DNA of 45,579 nt, taken from NCBI GenBank assembly GCA_944322885.1, contig CALUQH010000015.1:1-45579 (forward strand), written 5' to 3'. The notes under the pieces were generated by a model. It was not told where the DNA came from. It was given only the letters and a program-made list of their open reading frames with translations, and did not search any database. Shown piece by piece: positions 32,508 through 42,483 of the stretch. The translations under genes were made by a program, and so were the position numbers. Numbering within the stretch: position 1 is the stretch's first letter; each line of letters begins with the position of its first letter. This DNA is from Candidatus Gastranaerophilales bacterium. GTDB taxonomy: Bacteria; Cyanobacteriota; Vampirovibrionia; Gastranaerophilales; Gastranaerophilaceae.

Positions 32508-33152
32508 TTGCTAAATAATTTCGAAAGTTTTGATAATTCTGAAACATCCGCAAGAAAATCAGCCCTGATTCAGGAAAGAATCGGACTTGTTTCTACGCAC
32601 ATGTATAAACAATTTTTGGACTATCAGCATGCCAACATCAACACGAATGAAATTTTTATCAGAATGATTGATAACCTGCAAATTGTTGTTGATACACTAA
32701 AGGAAGCATTCTCATCAAGAAACGTAACAACCCAAAATATTTACGTTGATACAGATCCCCAAAAATCTGTTGTTATTGTCAATATTTTGTGGCACAAAAT
32801 GAGCTTTACAACCCGCTGCAATTACCAGCCTCAGGCTCTGTACAGAGAAGACGGACAACATCTTTTCTCTAGCCGCATTATGGCAATTAAGGGAAATTAT
32901 TATGAGATTATGAAAGGAGTTATGGATCACGATGAAGAAATGGGCAAACTCCTTGATAACGAAGTTGCTTCTCTTTTCATTCCACCTGAATCTACCCAAA
33001 ATTCAATAATGAAAATAAGGCATTTGCCAAACCGCGAATTTTACCTTAACCAGGTTGATGCCCCGAGAGAATTTGTGTTGAAAGTTGTTGAAACAATATG
33101 CGGCGGCGGTTTCTACCACGAAGAAGGCTCAAGAAAAAGCTTTAATATTTAA
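32508..33152 (+). CDS. Unknown protein with TTG start
   Basis: The product has 214 residues, family unknown. Translation starts at TTG, with AAGGA 8 nt upstream; no ATG fits better. The sequence is soluble with a probable alpha/beta core (VVDTLKEAFSSRNV, VVIVNILWHKMSF, YYEIMKGVMDHDEEMG) and a Gly-rich end (ETICGGGFYHEEGS). It is not a membrane protein. It is convergent with the 85-aa gene (4 bp gap). Confidence 0.6.
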   Translation: MLNNFESFDNSETSARKSALIQERIGLVSTHMYKQFLDYQHANINTNEIFIRMIDNLQIVVDTLKEAFSSRNVTTQNIYVDTDPQKSVVIVNILWHKMSFTTRCNYQPQALYREDGQHLFSSRIMAIKGNYYEIMKGVMDHDEEMGKLLDNEVASLFIPPESTQNSIMKIRHLPNREFYLNQVDAPREFVLKVVETICGGGFYHEEGSRKSFNI

Positions 33153-34169: not shown

Positions 34170-34523
34170 TTATTTTTGGAATTCTTCAACAAAAGCCTTA
34201 CTTACTGCGAGAGCTTTAAGTTCTGGATTTTGAATCCCAGCATCTGCGTATTTTTTTTCTGCAAGTTCAGCAACTTCAAGTGCTTTTGCAGCTAATTCAG
34301 GGTTGGACACAAAAACCTTGATATCGTTTTCAAGGTTGTCGACCTTGATTGCAGAACGATCAGCAGGATTTTCCGGAATTTCCTTAATTTCTTTTGTCTG
34401 CACCACTGCCGAAGGCGCTTGAGTAGTGTCTTGAACAGCTTCCGGTTTTACTTGATCAATTTTCTGGGTCTGCGGTTGCTGTGGAATGCTTGAACCTTGA
34501 GGGTTTTTAGGGATTTCGTTCAT
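34170..34523 (-). CDS. Small Pro/Gln-rich protein with helical C-terminus
   Basis: The product has 117 residues. The N-terminal half is Pro/Gln/Lys-rich and unstructured (PQGSSIPQQPQTQKIDQVKP); the C-terminal half is a helical segment (PELAAKALEVAELAEKKYAD). No TM segment or known family. I use ATG at 34523 (AGAGGA upstream); GTG at 34529 is possible. It is divergent from the kinase-like gene, with a GTTA-type dyad in the gap. Confidence 0.6.
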   Translation of the reverse strand: MNEIPKNPQGSSIPQQPQTQKIDQVKPEAVQDTTQAPSAVVQTKEIKEIPENPADRSAIKVDNLENDIKVFVSNPELAAKALEVAELAEKKYADAGIQNPELKALAVSKAFVEEFQK

Positions 34524-34551
34524 AGTCACATCCTCTTTTCTTTTTTCTGGG

Positions 34552-34572: not shown

Positions 34573-34777
34573 GATTAGGTATATATCTCTTTATCTCGTT
34601 TTATGCTTTAAAACACATAAACAATTTTTTTTGCTAGTTTGTAAAAAAAAAATTACAAAAATTAATATATAATCATTCTTTACAAACTTTTTATGATATA
34701 TTAAGAAATATAGTGTACCCTGTACAAATATATAAATGTTATATAAAGTATACAACATTAAGGGAAGTAATGCAACA

Positions 34778-35899
34778 ATGAATTTTACTAATTTATTTAG
34801 TAACATAAACCCGAAAGAAGTAATTAAAAATTTACCGGATGCCGTATTCGTAGTAGATTTTGACGGCAGGGTTATATGGGTAAATAATAAAGCGGCCGTA
34901 ATTTTTGAAAGTAATGCAGGTGATTTAAAAGGACTGAGTTTTGATGAACTTGTTGCCAACGGTATGGAAATGGCTGAAAAATCTTATGCTAAAAGAACTG
35001 CCGTTGTAACGGGGGCTTTTACCGTTGAAGGTAAAGAATTTTTCATTGAGATGAATGTAAAAAAATACGTTGACCAGTATTTCATTACAATAAGAGATGT
35101 TACGGCAATGACAAATGTGCTGACTATAGCCGAAAGAACAGGCCGTTTGAATAAAGAAAAAAATCTTATGCTTGTAAGATTATCTAATGAAATCAAATCA
35201 CCTATACAATCAATAATAGGTTTTTCTCAAGCACTTTTAGACGGTCTTGGAGGTGAAATTACCGACAAACAATCCAAGTATGTAAAAATTATTAACAAAA
35301 ATTCAACAGAATTGTTATATTTTATGGAAAAATTTATAGAATTTTCACAGGCTGAATCTTCATTGTTTACCTGTGATATACAGCCGTTTGATATCACTAA
35401 TGCAATCCAATCTGTTGTAAGAAATAATGATAATGTTTTAAGTGCAAAAAATTTGATTGTAAACTACGATTTTGACGAACTGTTGAAAAAAACAATCTAT
35501 AATGATGAAAATGATATTAAAATAATATTGCAAAATATACTTGAAACATCTATCAAACTCACGGATGCCGGTACAATTAACATAAAAGTCGATTACCCTG
35601 AACCCGAAGTTATTGAAAAATCAGGAGCAAAAATAATTAAAAATGCGTCCGCCAATTCTTATATAAGAATTACAGTAACAGATACAGGGGTCGGACTTGC
35701 CGAAACTGAAATGGAAGGGCTTTTCGAACCTTATACACAGCTCGATAAAGTGCATAAAAAAACGATTGTACGTTCTTTGACTTTAGGTACAGCTTATACT
35801 ATGGTTAAAAGAATGGGAGGCGCTATGTGGGTTAATTCGGAAGTTATGAAAGGTTCTTCTTTTTATGTAATACTTCCTGTTGAAAAACCGGCAAACTAA
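34778..35899 (+). CDS. PAS-histidine-kinase-like protein lacking the phospho-acceptor His
   Basis: The product has 373 residues. An N-terminal PAS domain (about 15-110; LPDAVFVVDFDGRVIWVNN) is followed by a HisKA-like helix pair (about 125-190) and a HATPase_c-like region (about 240-370) with DTGVGLAETEMEGLFEPY. The usual S-H-E H-box reads LSNEIKSPIQ, so the phospho-acceptor His is Asn at residue 137. The N-box Asn is Thr (LETSIKLT), and the G2 box (LTLGTAYTM) lacks its normal GxGL form. It probably does not autophosphorylate and may act as a sensor scaffold. AGGGAAG lies 13 nt before the ATG. It precedes the ABC ATPase by 18 bp. Confidence 0.75.
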   Translation: MNFTNLFSNINPKEVIKNLPDAVFVVDFDGRVIWVNNKAAVIFESNAGDLKGLSFDELVANGMEMAEKSYAKRTAVVTGAFTVEGKEFFIEMNVKKYVDQYFITIRDVTAMTNVLTIAERTGRLNKEKNLMLVRLSNEIKSPIQSIIGFSQALLDGLGGEITDKQSKYVKIINKNSTELLYFMEKFIEFSQAESSLFTCDIQPFDITNAIQSVVRNNDNVLSAKNLIVNYDFDELLKKTIYNDENDIKIILQNILETSIKLTDAGTINIKVDYPEPEVIEKSGAKIIKNASANSYIRITVTDTGVGLAETEMEGLFEPYTQLDKVHKKTIVRSLTLGTAYTMVKRMGGAMWVNSEVMKGSSFYVILPVEKPAN

Positions 35900-35917: not shown

Positions 35918-36916
35918 ATGAGTAATGTTGTTTTAAAGAACGTAACTAAAATTTACGATAAGAAAAAAGTTATAGATAATATTGATTTAACAATTAATGA
36001 TAAAGAATTTATCGTCCTTGTAGGAGCATCCGGCTGCGGGAAATCAACCCTTTTAAGAATGATTGCAGGTTTGGAAGAAATTACTGCAGGCGAGATATTT
36101 ATAGGGGACAAAAAAGTTAATGATGCTCAGCCAAAAGATCGTGATATAGCTTTTGTTTTCCAGAGTTACGCTCTATATCCGCACATGACAGTAAGAGAAA
36201 ATATAGCTTTCGGGCTAAAAATGCGCAAAGTCGATAAAGCAGAAATAGCAAAAAAGGTAGAGGAAGCCGCACAAATTCTGGATTTAGGAGAATATTTAGA
36301 TAGGAAACCCAAACAGCTTTCAGGAGGACAGCGCCAGCGTGTAGCACTCGGACGTGCTATTGTGAGAAATCCCAAAGTATTTTTAATGGATGAACCGCTA
36401 TCCAACCTTGATGCGAAATTACGTGTTCAAATGCGCTCAGAAATAAAAAAACTCCACGAAAAACTGCAAACTACATTTATTTATGTAACTCACGACCAGA
36501 CAGAGGCACTCACAATGGGTGACAGAATTGTCGTGTTGGACAAGGGTGTAATTCAGCAGGTTGCAAGCCCTGAAGAAATTTATAACAATCCTGCAAATAC
36601 TTTTGTTGCAGGTTTTATCGGCTCACCGCAAATGAATTTTATAAATTCTGAGGATTTTCCGCACAAAACACAGGATAATGTCATAGTAGGCATACGCCCC
36701 GAGAAAATGTTCAATCCGGACGGGGATATAAAATTCTCTGTAAAAGTGGATATAACAGAGCTTTTGGGCAGTGAAAAAATAGCTTATTTCAACATCGGAG
36801 AACATAAATGTTCCGCTAAACTTCCCGCAGACTTCAACACCGGAGAGAATCTTGAGTTAAGCATAGATTCTGATGATTTATACTTTTTTGACAGGAAAAC
36901 AGGTAAAAGAATTTAA
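35918..36916 (+). CDS. ugpC: Sugar ABC transporter ATP-binding protein (UgpC/MalK type)
   Basis: The product has 332 residues. Walker A is GASGCGKST (36-44), Q-loop FVFQSYALYPHM, signature LSGGQRQRVALGRA, Walker B VFLMDEPLSNLD and the switch His in FIYVTHDQTEALTMGDR. A C-terminal OB-like (TOBE/MOI) domain begins near 240 but is short, so the protein is about 30 residues shorter than typical MalK. MalK/UgpC-type ATPases serve several sugar permeases; the permease at 7484 is a candidate partner. Symbol is approximate. Confidence 0.88.
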   Translation: MSNVVLKNVTKIYDKKKVIDNIDLTINDKEFIVLVGASGCGKSTLLRMIAGLEEITAGEIFIGDKKVNDAQPKDRDIAFVFQSYALYPHMTVRENIAFGLKMRKVDKAEIAKKVEEAAQILDLGEYLDRKPKQLSGGQRQRVALGRAIVRNPKVFLMDEPLSNLDAKLRVQMRSEIKKLHEKLQTTFIYVTHDQTEALTMGDRIVVLDKGVIQQVASPEEIYNNPANTFVAGFIGSPQMNFINSEDFPHKTQDNVIVGIRPEKMFNPDGDIKFSVKVDITELLGSEKIAYFNIGEHKCSAKLPADFNTGENLELSIDSDDLYFFDRKTGKRI

Positions 36917-38040: not shown

Positions 38041-41000
38041 ATGGGCAGGAATTTAAAATTTTTAATAACAATATTTTCTTTAACAGTTTTGTATGGAGCT
38101 TACTACTGGGGGATTCCTGCTCTTATTAATCTGCCTGAAAGAGCTGATTATATTGAACGGATTGTTCTAAAAGAAACAGGTTATAAAATATCATTAGATA
38201 ACCCTGAGTTAAAAATGGGATTTACTCCGTCTGTATGGGTTAAAGCAAATAGTTTTTGCGTATTGAATAAGGACAATTCCAGAGCTCTTGAAGTAGAAAA
38301 ACCAAATATCAATATTAAACTTTTGCCTTTAATATTTAAAGATATTGATATTAAATATTTTTCAGCAGGAAATATAACTGCAAATCTTGTTTTCACAAAA
38401 AATTCAGAACTCCGGCTCGGCGATTATAAATTATCAGAAAACATAAACTCACCGTTCAAAATCAAACATGCCTGCATAAATCTTGAAAATTACGGAATAA
38501 ATCTTGATGACCGGCTGCAATCAAAAAAACTTGCACTAACAGGGGACTACCTTGTTATAAAAAATTTTAACAGTGATAAACATATTGATTTATCAACAAG
38601 CGCCAAATTACAAACAGGGAAGAAAACATCTTACCTTAAAGCCGATATCGATTTGAAACTGCCTTTGAATAAAATTTCAGACGATCAGGCAGAACTTTCC
38701 GGACATCTTGTAAACCTTGATTTATCCGATTTCTCAGTTTATGCAAAAGCTCTTTCCAAAGGTGAAATCAGTTCAGTTTCAGGACTCGTCAACTTTACGG
38801 CAAATACAGTCGAAACAGGTGATAAGCATAAACAAATAAAAACAGCACTATACATAAATGACTTCGGGATATTTAAAAAAGATTTTTCTACTTCTGTCTA
38901 TCTTGACGGAAAAATGGAAATAAAAACGGATGTTAATACTATAAAAAACGGAATTGACATCAATGAAATGAAAATTACTGCCAAAGGTATAAAATCTTTC
39001 ACCACAGGCAAAATTACAAAGCTGAATAATAAAATCCCGGAGCTTGACTTAAAAGTAACAATTAATCAATCTAAGGCGGAAGACATTGTTTCACTGCTCC
39101 CTGCAGAACATAATCTTTGTCCTGATATAGACTTATTTATACTTAAACAGGCAGGTTTCTGGGGCAAAGCGGCTGGGAATTTAGAAATTAAAGGGAAGGC
39201 TGATTTTCCTGATGTATTCGGAAACGTACTTGTATGGGATGCTTATATGGTGCAACCTATTAAAAATGCTGAAAAAGCTGTAATCAAAATAGCATTTAAC
39301 GGGCAAAAGCTTAATCTTGATGTAAAAGTGCCGACAAGCCCTACAGAAACAGTATATGTAAAAGGGCCGATAAACCTTTATCACGACAAATATGCTGATT
39401 TAATGATTACAAGCACGGAAAATGTAGATTTGAAAACAGCACAAATAGTTCTTAATCCGCTGCACGATATACTGCATTTTGATTTAGGTCCTGTCCCGAT
39501 AATGGATATTAAAGGGAAAGGCGGGATTAATCTGCATGTTATAGGTACAAGAGAAAATCCGCACGGGTGGGGACAGTTCAGATTTAAAAATGCAACTGTA
39601 TCTTTTCTTGACATCCACAATATGATTTTGACAAACGGTTCAGGAACTCTTGATTTTGATAATCAAAATACTTTATTCCAGACAAAAACTGCAAACTTCA
39701 ACGGGAAACCGGTTTCTGTAAAAGGAACCTGCTCTCTTGCAGGAGATCTTGATTTTACCGTAAAAACGGCGGGACAGAATTTAGGTAATTTAATAAAAAT
39801 TATCAAAACATCTCCTATGCTTGCGGATATCCAAAAAATGACAGAAAGCATTGAAAACGCATCCGGTTCTTCAGACTTTTTCTTAAACCTTACAGGGAAA
39901 GTAAAAAATCCGAAAGATATTGTTTTTAATAAAAATATTTTCGCAAAAGGGAATATTAACCTTCACTCTGCAGCAATAAAATTAAAAGAGCTCCCGCTCA
40001 CACTTTCAAATACATCAGGAGTAATTAATTTTAATAATCTTGATGCCGATTTTAAACTTAATTCATTGCTTAACAAATCCAGAATTTCGGCAAAAGGTAA
40101 GATTAAAGGGACTGATGCAAGTTTAGAAATTCTATCACCTAAATTCAATCTTGGTGACGGAATTTCAGCTTTCCCGTATAAAATACCGTACAAAAATGAC
40201 CTTGCAACTGTTAATTCAAGCTTTAATGCTTCATATAAAGGTGATATAAATAAAATCGATTATAATAAATTATCTGTAAAAGGACGGATTTATCCAAACA
40301 GAGGAGCAAAATCCGCAATTATTACAAACGGCGGAGGCTTTGAACTTAATAATTCTCGCTTCAAACTCTCTGAATTGAAGGGAACATTTAATAAAAGCCC
40401 TTATGATATTTCTCTTTATATTTCCGGCTTATTCAGCCCGAAAAGAGTTGTAAACGGGAAATGCAATATAAATTCATTTGACCTGAATACTATTAATAAT
40501 AAAGAAATTCAGGCATTTTTACCGCCCGACGCTGCTAAACAGCTAAATGATATTCAAATTTTAACAGGAAAAATCAACCTGAAAGCAAGAGCCAGAAACA
40601 ACAATATTACCGTTTATGCTCCGCTCAACGATATCAACATTTTATATAAGCCTAAAAAAATTAAACTTGTTATAAACAGCGGAGATATTTTATTAAACAA
40701 CGATACATTGAATATAAATAAAGTTAATGCTCAGCTCGGGAGTATGCCTGTTTTTGTATCCGGCAAAGTCGCAAACATTCAAAAAAATCCGAACCTTAAT
40801 ATTTATCTCAATACAAAGCTTACACAGGAATTTTTTGACCAATACTTCAATAACAAGGCAGTTTATCCTATAAAACTTAAGGGTGATGTAATTTTAACAT
40901 CAAGGGTAAACGGAACATTAAATAACCTGAATACAAATTCTAACTTAAATATTGATGCTTCATCCAGCCTTTATTACATGGGAGCTTCCATTGGAGATGC

Positions 41001-42483
41001 GGAAAATCCCGTAAAAATTGTTATAAACAGTAATTATTCACCAAATAAAATAAAAATTAACAGACTGCAATATGACAAAATTATAACATCTCTTAATAAC
41101 AAACCTTACATCGCACCGCAGCTTAATGCGTCGGGAACACTTGCACTTTTAACGGACAATATTATAGGTTTTAACAACTTTAAAGTGAAAACGCAGACTC
41201 CGACAGATGCAAAAATATTCAATATAATATTTAGAAAACCGTTTATGAAACAGGGGGTATTTACATCAGACCTTGTGCTTAACGGTACATCTCTCAATCC
41301 GAAAATAAACGGCAAGTTTGAAATAACAAGTATTGATATTCCGTTCTTTGACTCAACAATCAGAGATGTAAACCTTGATTTTAAAAATGACAAAATTTAT
41401 ATAACAAGTAAAGGTACGGTTATTACAAATGATGTATTTCTTAATGCGGTTATGAAAAATAATCTTACTCCGCCTTATATTATAGACTATGCAAAATTGA
41501 GGGTCGGTGATTTAAATGTTAATAAAATAACGGAAACCTTGAGAGATGTAGAAGCCGAAGCGACAAGAAATCCTACTGTTTCACCGAATAACCTTCCGCC
41601 TTTTGATATTGACCAGCTCGTAATCAACAATGCAGATATTGAAGCAGATAAGATTAAAGTAAGAAATATAAATGCTGACAATTTTACGGCAAATCTCAGT
41701 CTTGATAAAAACGGACTTGCAGATATCAAAAACTTTAAATTTAATATTGCAGAAGGCTCTGTTAACGGCAATTTTAAACATAATATAAATACACATAGAA
41801 CTAATCTTGATATTAATCTTGATAAAGCAAATGCACTTATAATGTCAGAAGCCCTGTTTGACTTAAAAGGGCAGGTATACGGCTCGGTTAACGGGAATTT
41901 TAATTTAAGCTGTACAGGCGACAGTCAGGATTGCTTTAAAACGCTTTCCGGTGACGGAACATTTAAAATTGCGGATGGGAGAATGCCCAAACTCGGTTCT
42001 CTTGAGTATCTGCTTAAAGCCGGAAACCTTCTTAAAGGTGGCTTTACAGGGCTTTCAATAAACAGCCTTATTGATCTTGTTACACCGCTAAAAACAGGAA
42101 ACTTTGATAGTATATCAGGAGATATACATATTGCAGACGGCATAGCTGACAATATAAATATTTATTCAAACGGAAATGATTTGAATATGTATATGACAGG
42201 GAATTACAATCTGACAACATCGGTTGCCGATATGAAAATATATGGAAGTCTTACTAAAAATATTACAACCGTATTCGGAAAGATTAAAAACGCATCATTA
42301 AATACCCTGTTTAACACAATCCCCGGTATTAGCAGCCAAACGGAAAAACTGTTATTGCAAACAGACATAAGTAAAATTCCTGACATCAAAAATGCAACTG
42401 ATATCTACAGAATTTTTGCAGTAGAAATCAATGGTGATATTAACGGTTCAGATTATGTAAGAAGTTTTAAATGGGTTAAATGA
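38041..42483 (+). CDS. AsmA/TamB-like giant envelope protein
   Basis: The product has 1480 residues. An N-terminal transmembrane anchor (FLITIFSLTVLYGAYYWGIPAL) is followed by long beta-rich repeats, typical of AsmA-like (bridge-like lipid transfer) proteins, which in Gram-negative cells span from inner to outer membrane. The C-terminal region has the AsmA family pattern LSGDGTFKIADGRMPKLGSL and ISGDIHIADGIADNINIYS. A role in phospholipid transport to the outer membrane is family inference. TATAAT lies 11 nt before the ATG with AGGA between. It abuts the convergent prepilin gene with no gap. Confidence 0.82.
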   Translation: MGRNLKFLITIFSLTVLYGAYYWGIPALINLPERADYIERIVLKETGYKISLDNPELKMGFTPSVWVKANSFCVLNKDNSRALEVEKPNINIKLLPLIFKDIDIKYFSAGNITANLVFTKNSELRLGDYKLSENINSPFKIKHACINLENYGINLDDRLQSKKLALTGDYLVIKNFNSDKHIDLSTSAKLQTGKKTSYLKADIDLKLPLNKISDDQAELSGHLVNLDLSDFSVYAKALSKGEISSVSGLVNFTANTVETGDKHKQIKTALYINDFGIFKKDFSTSVYLDGKMEIKTDVNTIKNGIDINEMKITAKGIKSFTTGKITKLNNKIPELDLKVTINQSKAEDIVSLLPAEHNLCPDIDLFILKQAGFWGKAAGNLEIKGKADFPDVFGNVLVWDAYMVQPIKNAEKAVIKIAFNGQKLNLDVKVPTSPTETVYVKGPINLYHDKYADLMITSTENVDLKTAQIVLNPLHDILHFDLGPVPIMDIKGKGGINLHVIGTRENPHGWGQFRFKNATVSFLDIHNMILTNGSGTLDFDNQNTLFQTKTANFNGKPVSVKGTCSLAGDLDFTVKTAGQNLGNLIKIIKTSPMLADIQKMTESIENASGSSDFFLNLTGKVKNPKDIVFNKNIFAKGNINLHSAAIKLKELPLTLSNTSGVINFNNLDADFKLNSLLNKSRISAKGKIKGTDASLEILSPKFNLGDGISAFPYKIPYKNDLATVNSSFNASYKGDINKIDYNKLSVKGRIYPNRGAKSAIITNGGGFELNNSRFKLSELKGTFNKSPYDISLYISGLFSPKRVVNGKCNINSFDLNTINNKEIQAFLPPDAAKQLNDIQILTGKINLKARARNNNITVYAPLNDINILYKPKKIKLVINSGDILLNNDTLNINKVNAQLGSMPVFVSGKVANIQKNPNLNIYLNTKLTQEFFDQYFNNKAVYPIKLKGDVILTSRVNGTLNNLNTNSNLNIDASSSLYYMGASIGDAENPVKIVINSNYSPNKIKINRLQYDKIITSLNNKPYIAPQLNASGTLALLTDNIIGFNNFKVKTQTPTDAKIFNIIFRKPFMKQGVFTSDLVLNGTSLNPKINGKFEITSIDIPFFDSTIRDVNLDFKNDKIYITSKGTVITNDVFLNAVMKNNLTPPYIIDYAKLRVGDLNVNKITETLRDVEAEATRNPTVSPNNLPPFDIDQLVINNADIEADKIKVRNINADNFTANLSLDKNGLADIKNFKFNIAEGSVNGNFKHNINTHRTNLDINLDKANALIMSEALFDLKGQVYGSVNGNFNLSCTGDSQDCFKTLSGDGTFKIADGRMPKLGSLEYLLKAGNLLKGGFTGLSINSLIDLVTPLKTGNFDSISGDIHIADGIADNINIYSNGNDLNMYMTGNYNLTTSVADMKIYGSLTKNITTVFGKIKNASLNTLFNTIPGISSQTEKLLLQTDISKIPDIKNATDIYRIFAVEINGDINGSDYVRSFKWVK

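Follow-up and report, generated by a model that had tools for sequence, protein, structure and literature searches.

A pseudo-histidine-kinase gene and its neighbouring sugar ABC ATPase gene in the Gastranaerophilales

The locus and its altered kinase boxes

The window, that is, the whole stretch of DNA analysed here, comprises 45,579 nucleotides from Candidatus Gastranaerophilales bacterium (GenBank assembly GCA_944322885.1, contig CALUQH010000015.1, positions 1 to 45,579 of the forward strand). An open frame at 34736-35899 on the plus strand contains a putative pseudo-histidine-kinase gene with its likely start at the ATG at 34778, and it is followed by the gene for a sugar ABC ATPase. The features of the gene pair are listed below.

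34778..35899, plus strand: pseudo-histidine-kinase gene, 373 aa, PAS - DHp/HisKA - HATPase_c; Met1 is kept over 37 genera (score 0.84)
34811..35098, plus strand: PAS domain, about aa 12-107, from Pfam and the predicted fold
35162..35359, plus strand: HisKA/DHp helical pair
35186..35188, plus strand: Asn137, codon AAT, at the place of the phospho-acceptor His
35189..35311, plus strand: lower DHp face, aa 138-178, KSPxQSxxGFSQALLDGLGG...DKQxKYxxIINKNS, the best-conserved stretch of the protein
35522..35563, plus strand: altered N box IILQNILETSIKLT, Thr for the Mg-binding Asn
35678..35698, plus strand: G1 box TDTGVGL, kept
35720..35734, plus strand: F box LFEPY, kept
35774..35800, plus strand: altered G2 box SLTLGTAYT, with the ATP-lid hinge glycines gone
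35918..36916, plus strand: UgpC/MalK-type sugar ABC ATPase, 332 aa (UgpC model 482.2 bits against a cut-off of 432)

All three domains of the first protein scored above their Pfam cut-offs (HisKA 28.1 bits against 26.9, HATPase_c 52.6 against 26.4, PAS 31 against 22.6). The roles of the residues within the kinase boxes (H, N, G1, F and G2) are textbook knowledge. The H box was VRLSNEIKSPIQS. In the N box, QNILETSIKLT, the first Asn was present and the second, Mg-binding Asn was replaced by Thr255, and the G2 box had SLTLGTA where GxGLGLA is expected. The hallmarks of an active kinase that were absent are thus the phospho-acceptor His, the Mg-binding N-box Asn and the G2 glycines. The initial annotation had described an H box LSNEIKSPI with Asn for His, altered N and G2 boxes, a retained PAS domain and DTGVGL motif, and a distance of 18 bp to a sugar ABC ATPase (here from the stop ending at 35899 to the ATG at 35918), and each of these observations was borne out. 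Twelve HisKA domains were over the cut-off in the same genome, a count outside which three sub-threshold matches lie; His was found in 11 of them and the window protein was the sole exception, so its Asn is not a matter of chance. Judged by these residues, the protein almost certainly lacks kinase activity.

HisKA and HATPase_c were both matched in 30/30 members of alignment A1 (E<=1), in keeping with membership of the HisKA fold family. An AlphaFold2 model built with 30 sequences (pLDDT 81.6, pTM 0.62) gave VIA-align Z scores of 21.7 for the HK853-RR468 complex 6rh0_B (rmsd 5.1, 225 aligned), 20.8 for RetS (5.1, 214) and 20.3 for DivL (4.4, 224). Active YycG with ATP (4u7o) scored 20.5, a near tie with DivL; the modelled fold does not discriminate an active kinase from a pseudokinase and indicates no function. 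According to DSSP, the former G2 site of the model falls within a single helix (327-345; block pLDDT 70-92). A promoter/terminator scan gave nothing beyond what shuffled sequence yields (14 hits against 12.1, and 0 against 1.3).

Loss of catalytic residues, selection and the DHp face

A match at E<=1e-25 was found in 90 of the 116 relatives searched, and the nearest loci in the genome collection had up to 94% identity. The orthologue set comprised 150 sequences, one per genome, of which 89 came from the search of the 116 relatives and 61 from a search with an f4 query (E<=1e-48), and weakly similar orthologues are under-represented in it. G102 and the second of the matches in G072 were excluded as other kinases. 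With f1 denoting the window's own family and f2 to f7 the other families of the order, the set was made up of 129 f1, 2 f2, 10 f3, 2 f4, 4 f6 and 3 f7 members.

The His was missing in 142 of the 150 orthologues, and all five scored key residues were present in only two. The acceptor site of the 129 f1 members was N in 80, G in 20, T in 12, S in 8, H in 6, and P, D and I in one each; an alignment had been suggested as a check on whether the Asn is conserved, and it is not. Also in f1, the N-box Asn was kept in 18/129 members and both G2 glycines in 0/129; His, N-box Asn and the G2 pair were jointly missing in 105. Orthologues with His had been named as the finding that would indicate a local mutation. 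Such orthologues exist (8/150), but they do not point that way, since the two f4 proteins among them are kinases of another family with His and the other motifs intact, and the six in f1 (L072, L223, L266, L269, L271 and L272) have lost the N-box Asn and the G2 glycines. These six belong to genera g10, g13 and g35, which also contain Asn members (g10 Gly as well), and their His is perhaps a neutral change from Asn, one base apart.

The 19 members of f2, f3, f6 and f7 had lost the His and all retained the N-box Asn and the G1 Asp; both G2 glycines were found in 4/19, all of them f3. This pattern suggests that the His was lost first, then the G2 hinge and then the Mg-binding Asn, because f2, f3, f6 and f7 proteins without His keep the N-box Asn and few keep both G2 glycines, and f1 has lost more. 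On the distribution of residues among these sequences, the His loss is old and not local. As a separate observation, the ten f3 loci (L096, L101, L102, L103, L104, L108, L110, L111, L112 and L113) had lost the His and kept the N-box Asn and G1, one G2 glycine also being lost in 6/10; f3 members are possible ATP-binding pseudokinases.

Two trees were made: a quick tree of 67 of the 150 orthologues with 10 outgroup kinases, and a careful tree of 30 orthologues with eight outgroups, which omitted four f1 genera as too divergent and sampled a third of the remaining 33. Every family code formed one group in both. The two His-bearing f4 kinases were placed beside f3 with weak support (SH-aLRT 93 in the quick tree, 84/63 in the careful tree), a position with which several losses of the His would be needed. 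A single clade of all His-less orthologues was not rejected (p-AU 0.32). Neither was a clade of the ABC-linked families f1 and f7 (p-AU 0.17), the tree itself grouping f7 with f6.

Open frames of the 150 orthologues measured 314-463 aa from stop to stop, the shortest (G085) lying in a 3840-base contig, and no internal stops were found in the pseudokinase matches, among the matches listed. Within the genus, the median dN/dS of the gene, a rough ratio as dS was near saturation, was 0.106 (33 genomes, NG86; 156/528 pairs usable, dS<1.5). Calculated separately for the domains, from the pairs usable in each case, it was 0.071 for DHp, 0.092 for PAS and 0.163 for CA. A single canonical kinase (L148) was used as the control; it was found in 30/32 genomes of the genus, with His, N-box Asn and GLGL in all 30. 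Its dN/dS was 0.257 (36/435 pairs), with 0.160 for DHp and 0.288 for CA, so that DHp was lowest there too. Four of its orthologues (L288, L292, L293 and L296) showed one TAA inside the matched stretch. Identity to the copy in the window genome, a comparison independent of dS, was higher for the pseudokinase than for the control kinase in 29/29 genomes over the full length, in 27/29 for DHp and in 28/29 for CA.

By these comparisons the pseudokinase gene is under purifying selection. The initial annotation had read the intact frame as a sign of a selected pseudokinase and not of decay, and the results support this. That the gene is decaying, or carries a mutation of recent and local origin, might be argued from the drift of the catalytic motifs among genera and from the six f1 members with His. 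This explanation is extremely improbable and was rejected on account of the open frames, the dN/dS of about 0.1, the closer identity in every genome compared and the breadth of the His loss.

Over 37 f1 genera, the conservation scores were highest for the lower DHp helices (0.733 and 0.753), against 0.63-0.64 for the upper DHp, 0.442 for PAS and 0.498 for CA. As the acceptor site varies over f1, the selected feature seems to be the surface beside this site and not the Asn itself. The signature GFSQALLDGLGG..EKQ.KY.KIINKN occurred throughout f1, more loosely in f2, f3, f4, f6 and f7, and much less in the 10 outgroup kinases; the match to the f1 consensus was 0.64 and 0.62 in f4 against 0.39 (a1) and 0.26 (a2) in outgroup kinases. 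The KSP motif was eroded in genera g3, g21, g26, g36 and g37. Among the 129 f1 members, S was found at H+8 in 126, G at H+11 in 122, F at H+12 in 128 and A at H+15 in 119. H+8, +11 and +15 align with HK853 A268, A271 and T275, which are rewired in the entries titled 4jas/4jau, and we take their equivalents to be response-regulator specificity positions that face the regulator. The lower DHp of ordinary HisKA kinases is the docking site of the response regulator. The intact f4 kinases have this face, and so do f7 and the families f2, f3 and f6, in which the ABC link is absent. As it occurs both in kinases that still have their His and in families that are not linked to the ATPase, its partner probably predates the loss of the His as well as the link, as far as the sequences tell.

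Residues beside the acceptor site also bear on whether the protein might be a phosphatase-only enzyme, in which two residues of the HisKA phosphatase motif, one acidic (H+1) and one with a hydroxyl group (H+4), work without the His. H+1 was E or D in 120/129 f1 members and H+4 was S in 121/129, and H+4 was T in 6/10 f3, 3/4 f6 and 2/3 f7 members. The ATP site, which usually supports HisKA phosphatase activity, is eroded in f1, however. Moreover, the available part of the work on HK853 describes a phosphatase chemistry that uses both the His and the H+4 T, with H260 and T264 both holding the catalytic water (PMC5727384); here the His is gone and the T has become S. We regard a phosphatase-only enzyme as very unlikely.

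The linked sugar ABC ATPase

The ATPase gene was found directly downstream of the pseudokinase gene and on the same strand in 126/129 f1 and 3/3 f7 members, and in 0/18 members of f2, f3, f4 and f6. The f1 exceptions were L078, with the ATPase on another contig; L119, where no ATPase was found in a genome 63% complete; and L247, whose match ends 31 bases from the contig end, so that linkage there cannot show. At the extremes, the 129 linked pairs overlapped by 20 bases or were separated by 78, and in 126 the two genes lay within 40 bases of each other; 55/129 pairs overlapped, 46 of them by exactly 8 bases. From this spacing we infer that the two genes are co-transcribed as one operon. Linkage was kept down to a kinase identity of 27% (L124). 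In f2, f4 and f7 a cluster 9 gene, presumably rsmI, lay upstream of the kinase.

When the 116 genomes were searched, 106 had an ATPase match at 1e-50, and 105 of these had a single such ATPase. The linked ATPase was the only close one in the window genome, the next match having 35% identity. Six permease-domain matches were found there, four of them annotated: three fragments were CUT1-like (UgpA/UgpE/MalG, below curated cut-offs) and one was of the oligopeptide type; the rest were L161 and L165. The permeases and two sugar-binding proteins were scattered elsewhere in the genome. On this gene content, the linked ATPase is likely to be a shared, MsmK-like motor of several importers. It resembles MsmX/MsmK in that one UgpC/MalK-type ATPase stands against several CUT1-like permeases, its multitasking being an inference here. 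In contrast, the available part of the source on MsmX gave no pseudokinase partner for it (PMC7658222).

Linkage of this kind raises the possibility that the pseudokinase is a regulatory subunit of the importer, binding the UgpC/MalK-type ATPase and throttling or sensing transport as BceS does with BceAB. The near-constant and close pairing in f1 and f7, its persistence at 27% kinase identity and the single ATPase per genome argue for such a role. BceS offers a precedent, as it acts as a brake that lowers the ATPase activity of BceAB (PMC10314905, in the part available). As with BceS-BceAB, a kinase and an ABC ATPase would form a functional unit, here suggested by gene linkage. BceS itself, however, is a membrane kinase that is active, with His124, and belongs to a peptide-resistance transporter, unlike a pseudokinase beside a sugar-importer ATPase. 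The contact of BceS with its transporter is via membrane helices, of which Pfam annotates none in the pseudokinase. The best-conserved surface also predates the link and exists in families without it, and the two genes are on separate contigs in G042. In addition, G039 (98% complete) has the ATPase (L210, G039:C4) and no match to the pseudokinase; we take the frame upstream of the ATPase in that genome to be dnaE-like. On balance, an importer subunit appears unlikely.

Also improbable, and slightly more so, is a bolder form of this idea, in which a dead kinase was recruited as the cytosolic partner of a shared sugar-importer motor, so that sensing by its PAS domain would act on transport directly, without phosphotransfer or transcription. 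If true, a whole Gastranaerophilales family would use a repurposed two-component sensor to govern its uptake of sugar.

A possible docking switch, its relatives and its neighbours

The reading that we prefer, tentatively and at somewhat less than even chances, is that of a phosphotransfer-dead docking switch of the DivL type that binds a receiver partner. The protein would be a cytosolic dimer whose PAS domain receives a signal, and this signal would alter the hold of the DHp hairpin on a partner that was formerly its phospho-substrate. The likeliest partner would be a response regulator, or a receiver domain, that obtains its phosphate from a different kinase, and the output would be the partner bound or released, a scheme for which Caulobacter DivL is the model. 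Being transcribed together with the single UgpC/MalK-type ATPase would tie the dose of the protein to the sugar-import capacity of the cell, so the output would probably concern carbohydrate uptake.

Consistent with docking, the catalytic residues were lost together, selection was strongest in DHp and the lower DHp face was conserved, and DivL supplies a precedent. DivL carries Tyr for His and has neither kinase nor phosphatase activity, yet it has kept the ability to dimerise and to bind DivK~P (PMC4211667, in the part available). The window protein resembles it in having a PAS domain with DHp-CA, a replaced His and a conserved patch beside the lost His, together with the fold match given above (PMC4211667, as far as the available part describes DivL). 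A replaced His and a conserved docking face, the traits of the DivL type, were both found in the window protein; the other kinase motifs were not intact and no Tyr was at the site, so that the traits of a DivL orthologue were not found. By the same part of the source, DivL keeps the other histidine kinase motifs and has Tyr and multiple PAS domains (PMC4211667), unlike the present family, in which the N and G2 boxes are lost and the site is N, G, S or T. Against docking, the gene almost always paired with the pseudokinase encodes an ABC ATPase, pointing to another type of interaction, the KSP motif is eroded in the five genera named above, and the neighbourhood search described below gave no fixed regulator. 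The DHp helices are also constrained by dimer packing, the control kinase being likewise most constrained in DHp.

The constraint on DHp would also suit a protein that modulates an active histidine kinase by forming a heterodimer with it through DHp pairing, in the style of RetS-GacS or RocA-CovS. DHp is the most constrained domain, the genome encodes 11 His-bearing HisKA proteins as possible partners, and RetS was among the top fold matches. However, no fixed neighbouring kinase gene was seen when the neighbour clusters were read by eye, and the conserved residues include those positions that face the regulator. Such a modulator seems an unlikely account of the protein. Like RetS and RocA, it would use the histidine kinase fold for protein contact; we know of no link of either to a sugar ABC ATPase. 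RocA, as described in the available part of its source, is a pseudokinase that acts through a kinase and whose CA domain is also without the residues of kinase function, but it differs in having six transmembrane segments and a His, H246 (PMC7028121).

Pseudo-histidine-kinases are already known (DivL, RetS, RocA), and what is new here is a family with an unusual, fixed gene partner. To our knowledge, the known ones are mostly single well-studied proteins. Among the matches listed in open-licence papers, no pseudokinase from Gastranaerophilales or Melainabacteria was found; one search gave mostly papers on DivL, along with ChrS, and further ones dealt with other proteins. An order-wide pseudokinase family with graded loss and a sugar-ATPase partner was likewise absent. 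As intact, half-lost and fully lost members coexist across the order, the steps from a kinase to a binding switch are readable and testable. The near-fixed link to the sugar ATPase provides a concrete, testable partner.

A receiver partner for the docking switch was sought near the gene. The neighbourhoods of 89 loci contained 616 ORFs; four of these matched any of the 12 response regulators of the window genome, and no response regulator was fixed nearby. The four were two clear regulators (L084 and L086), a weak match (L121) and a hybrid-kinase match (L111). L084 and L086 are not mutually orthologous, their nearest regulators being L145 (68%) and L146 (77%), respectively. That they form one regulator family was ruled out, as they are nearest to different regulators of the genome.

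Further from the gene, L138 (G000:C20:42463-42798), a response regulator of the NarL type, lies ahead of another regulator, after which comes a repeat-rich gene. When the 12 regulators were compared with the receiver hits fetched from G039, G067 and G034, an orthologue of L138 was absent in G039 and present in G067 and G034; L139 had no orthologue in any of the three among these hits. The best matches to L138 were weak in both f1 genomes without the pseudokinase (G039, 2.3e-26; G054, 5.8e-27). Counterexamples were G013, G036, G047 (99% complete) and G062, with weak matches and the pseudokinase present, and G052 was intermediate (1.2e-30). G073 had no pseudokinase match, yet it had a strong L138 match (3.0e-45). 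L138 was chosen after G039 had been seen and is a weak lead as a partner candidate.

Three other genes of the window were noted. A small 119-aa gene (34170-34529, minus strand), with no Pfam match over the cut-off and no NCBIfam match, occupied position -1 in 44/89 loci. A 214-aa protein (32508-33152, plus strand; cluster 6), for which there was likewise no Pfam match over the cut-off or NCBIfam match, was found in the same place in six relatives. Downstream of the pair, a 1480-aa protein (38041-42483, plus strand) gave weak matches to YhdP and GspN below the cut-off, and we take it to be perhaps AsmA-like.
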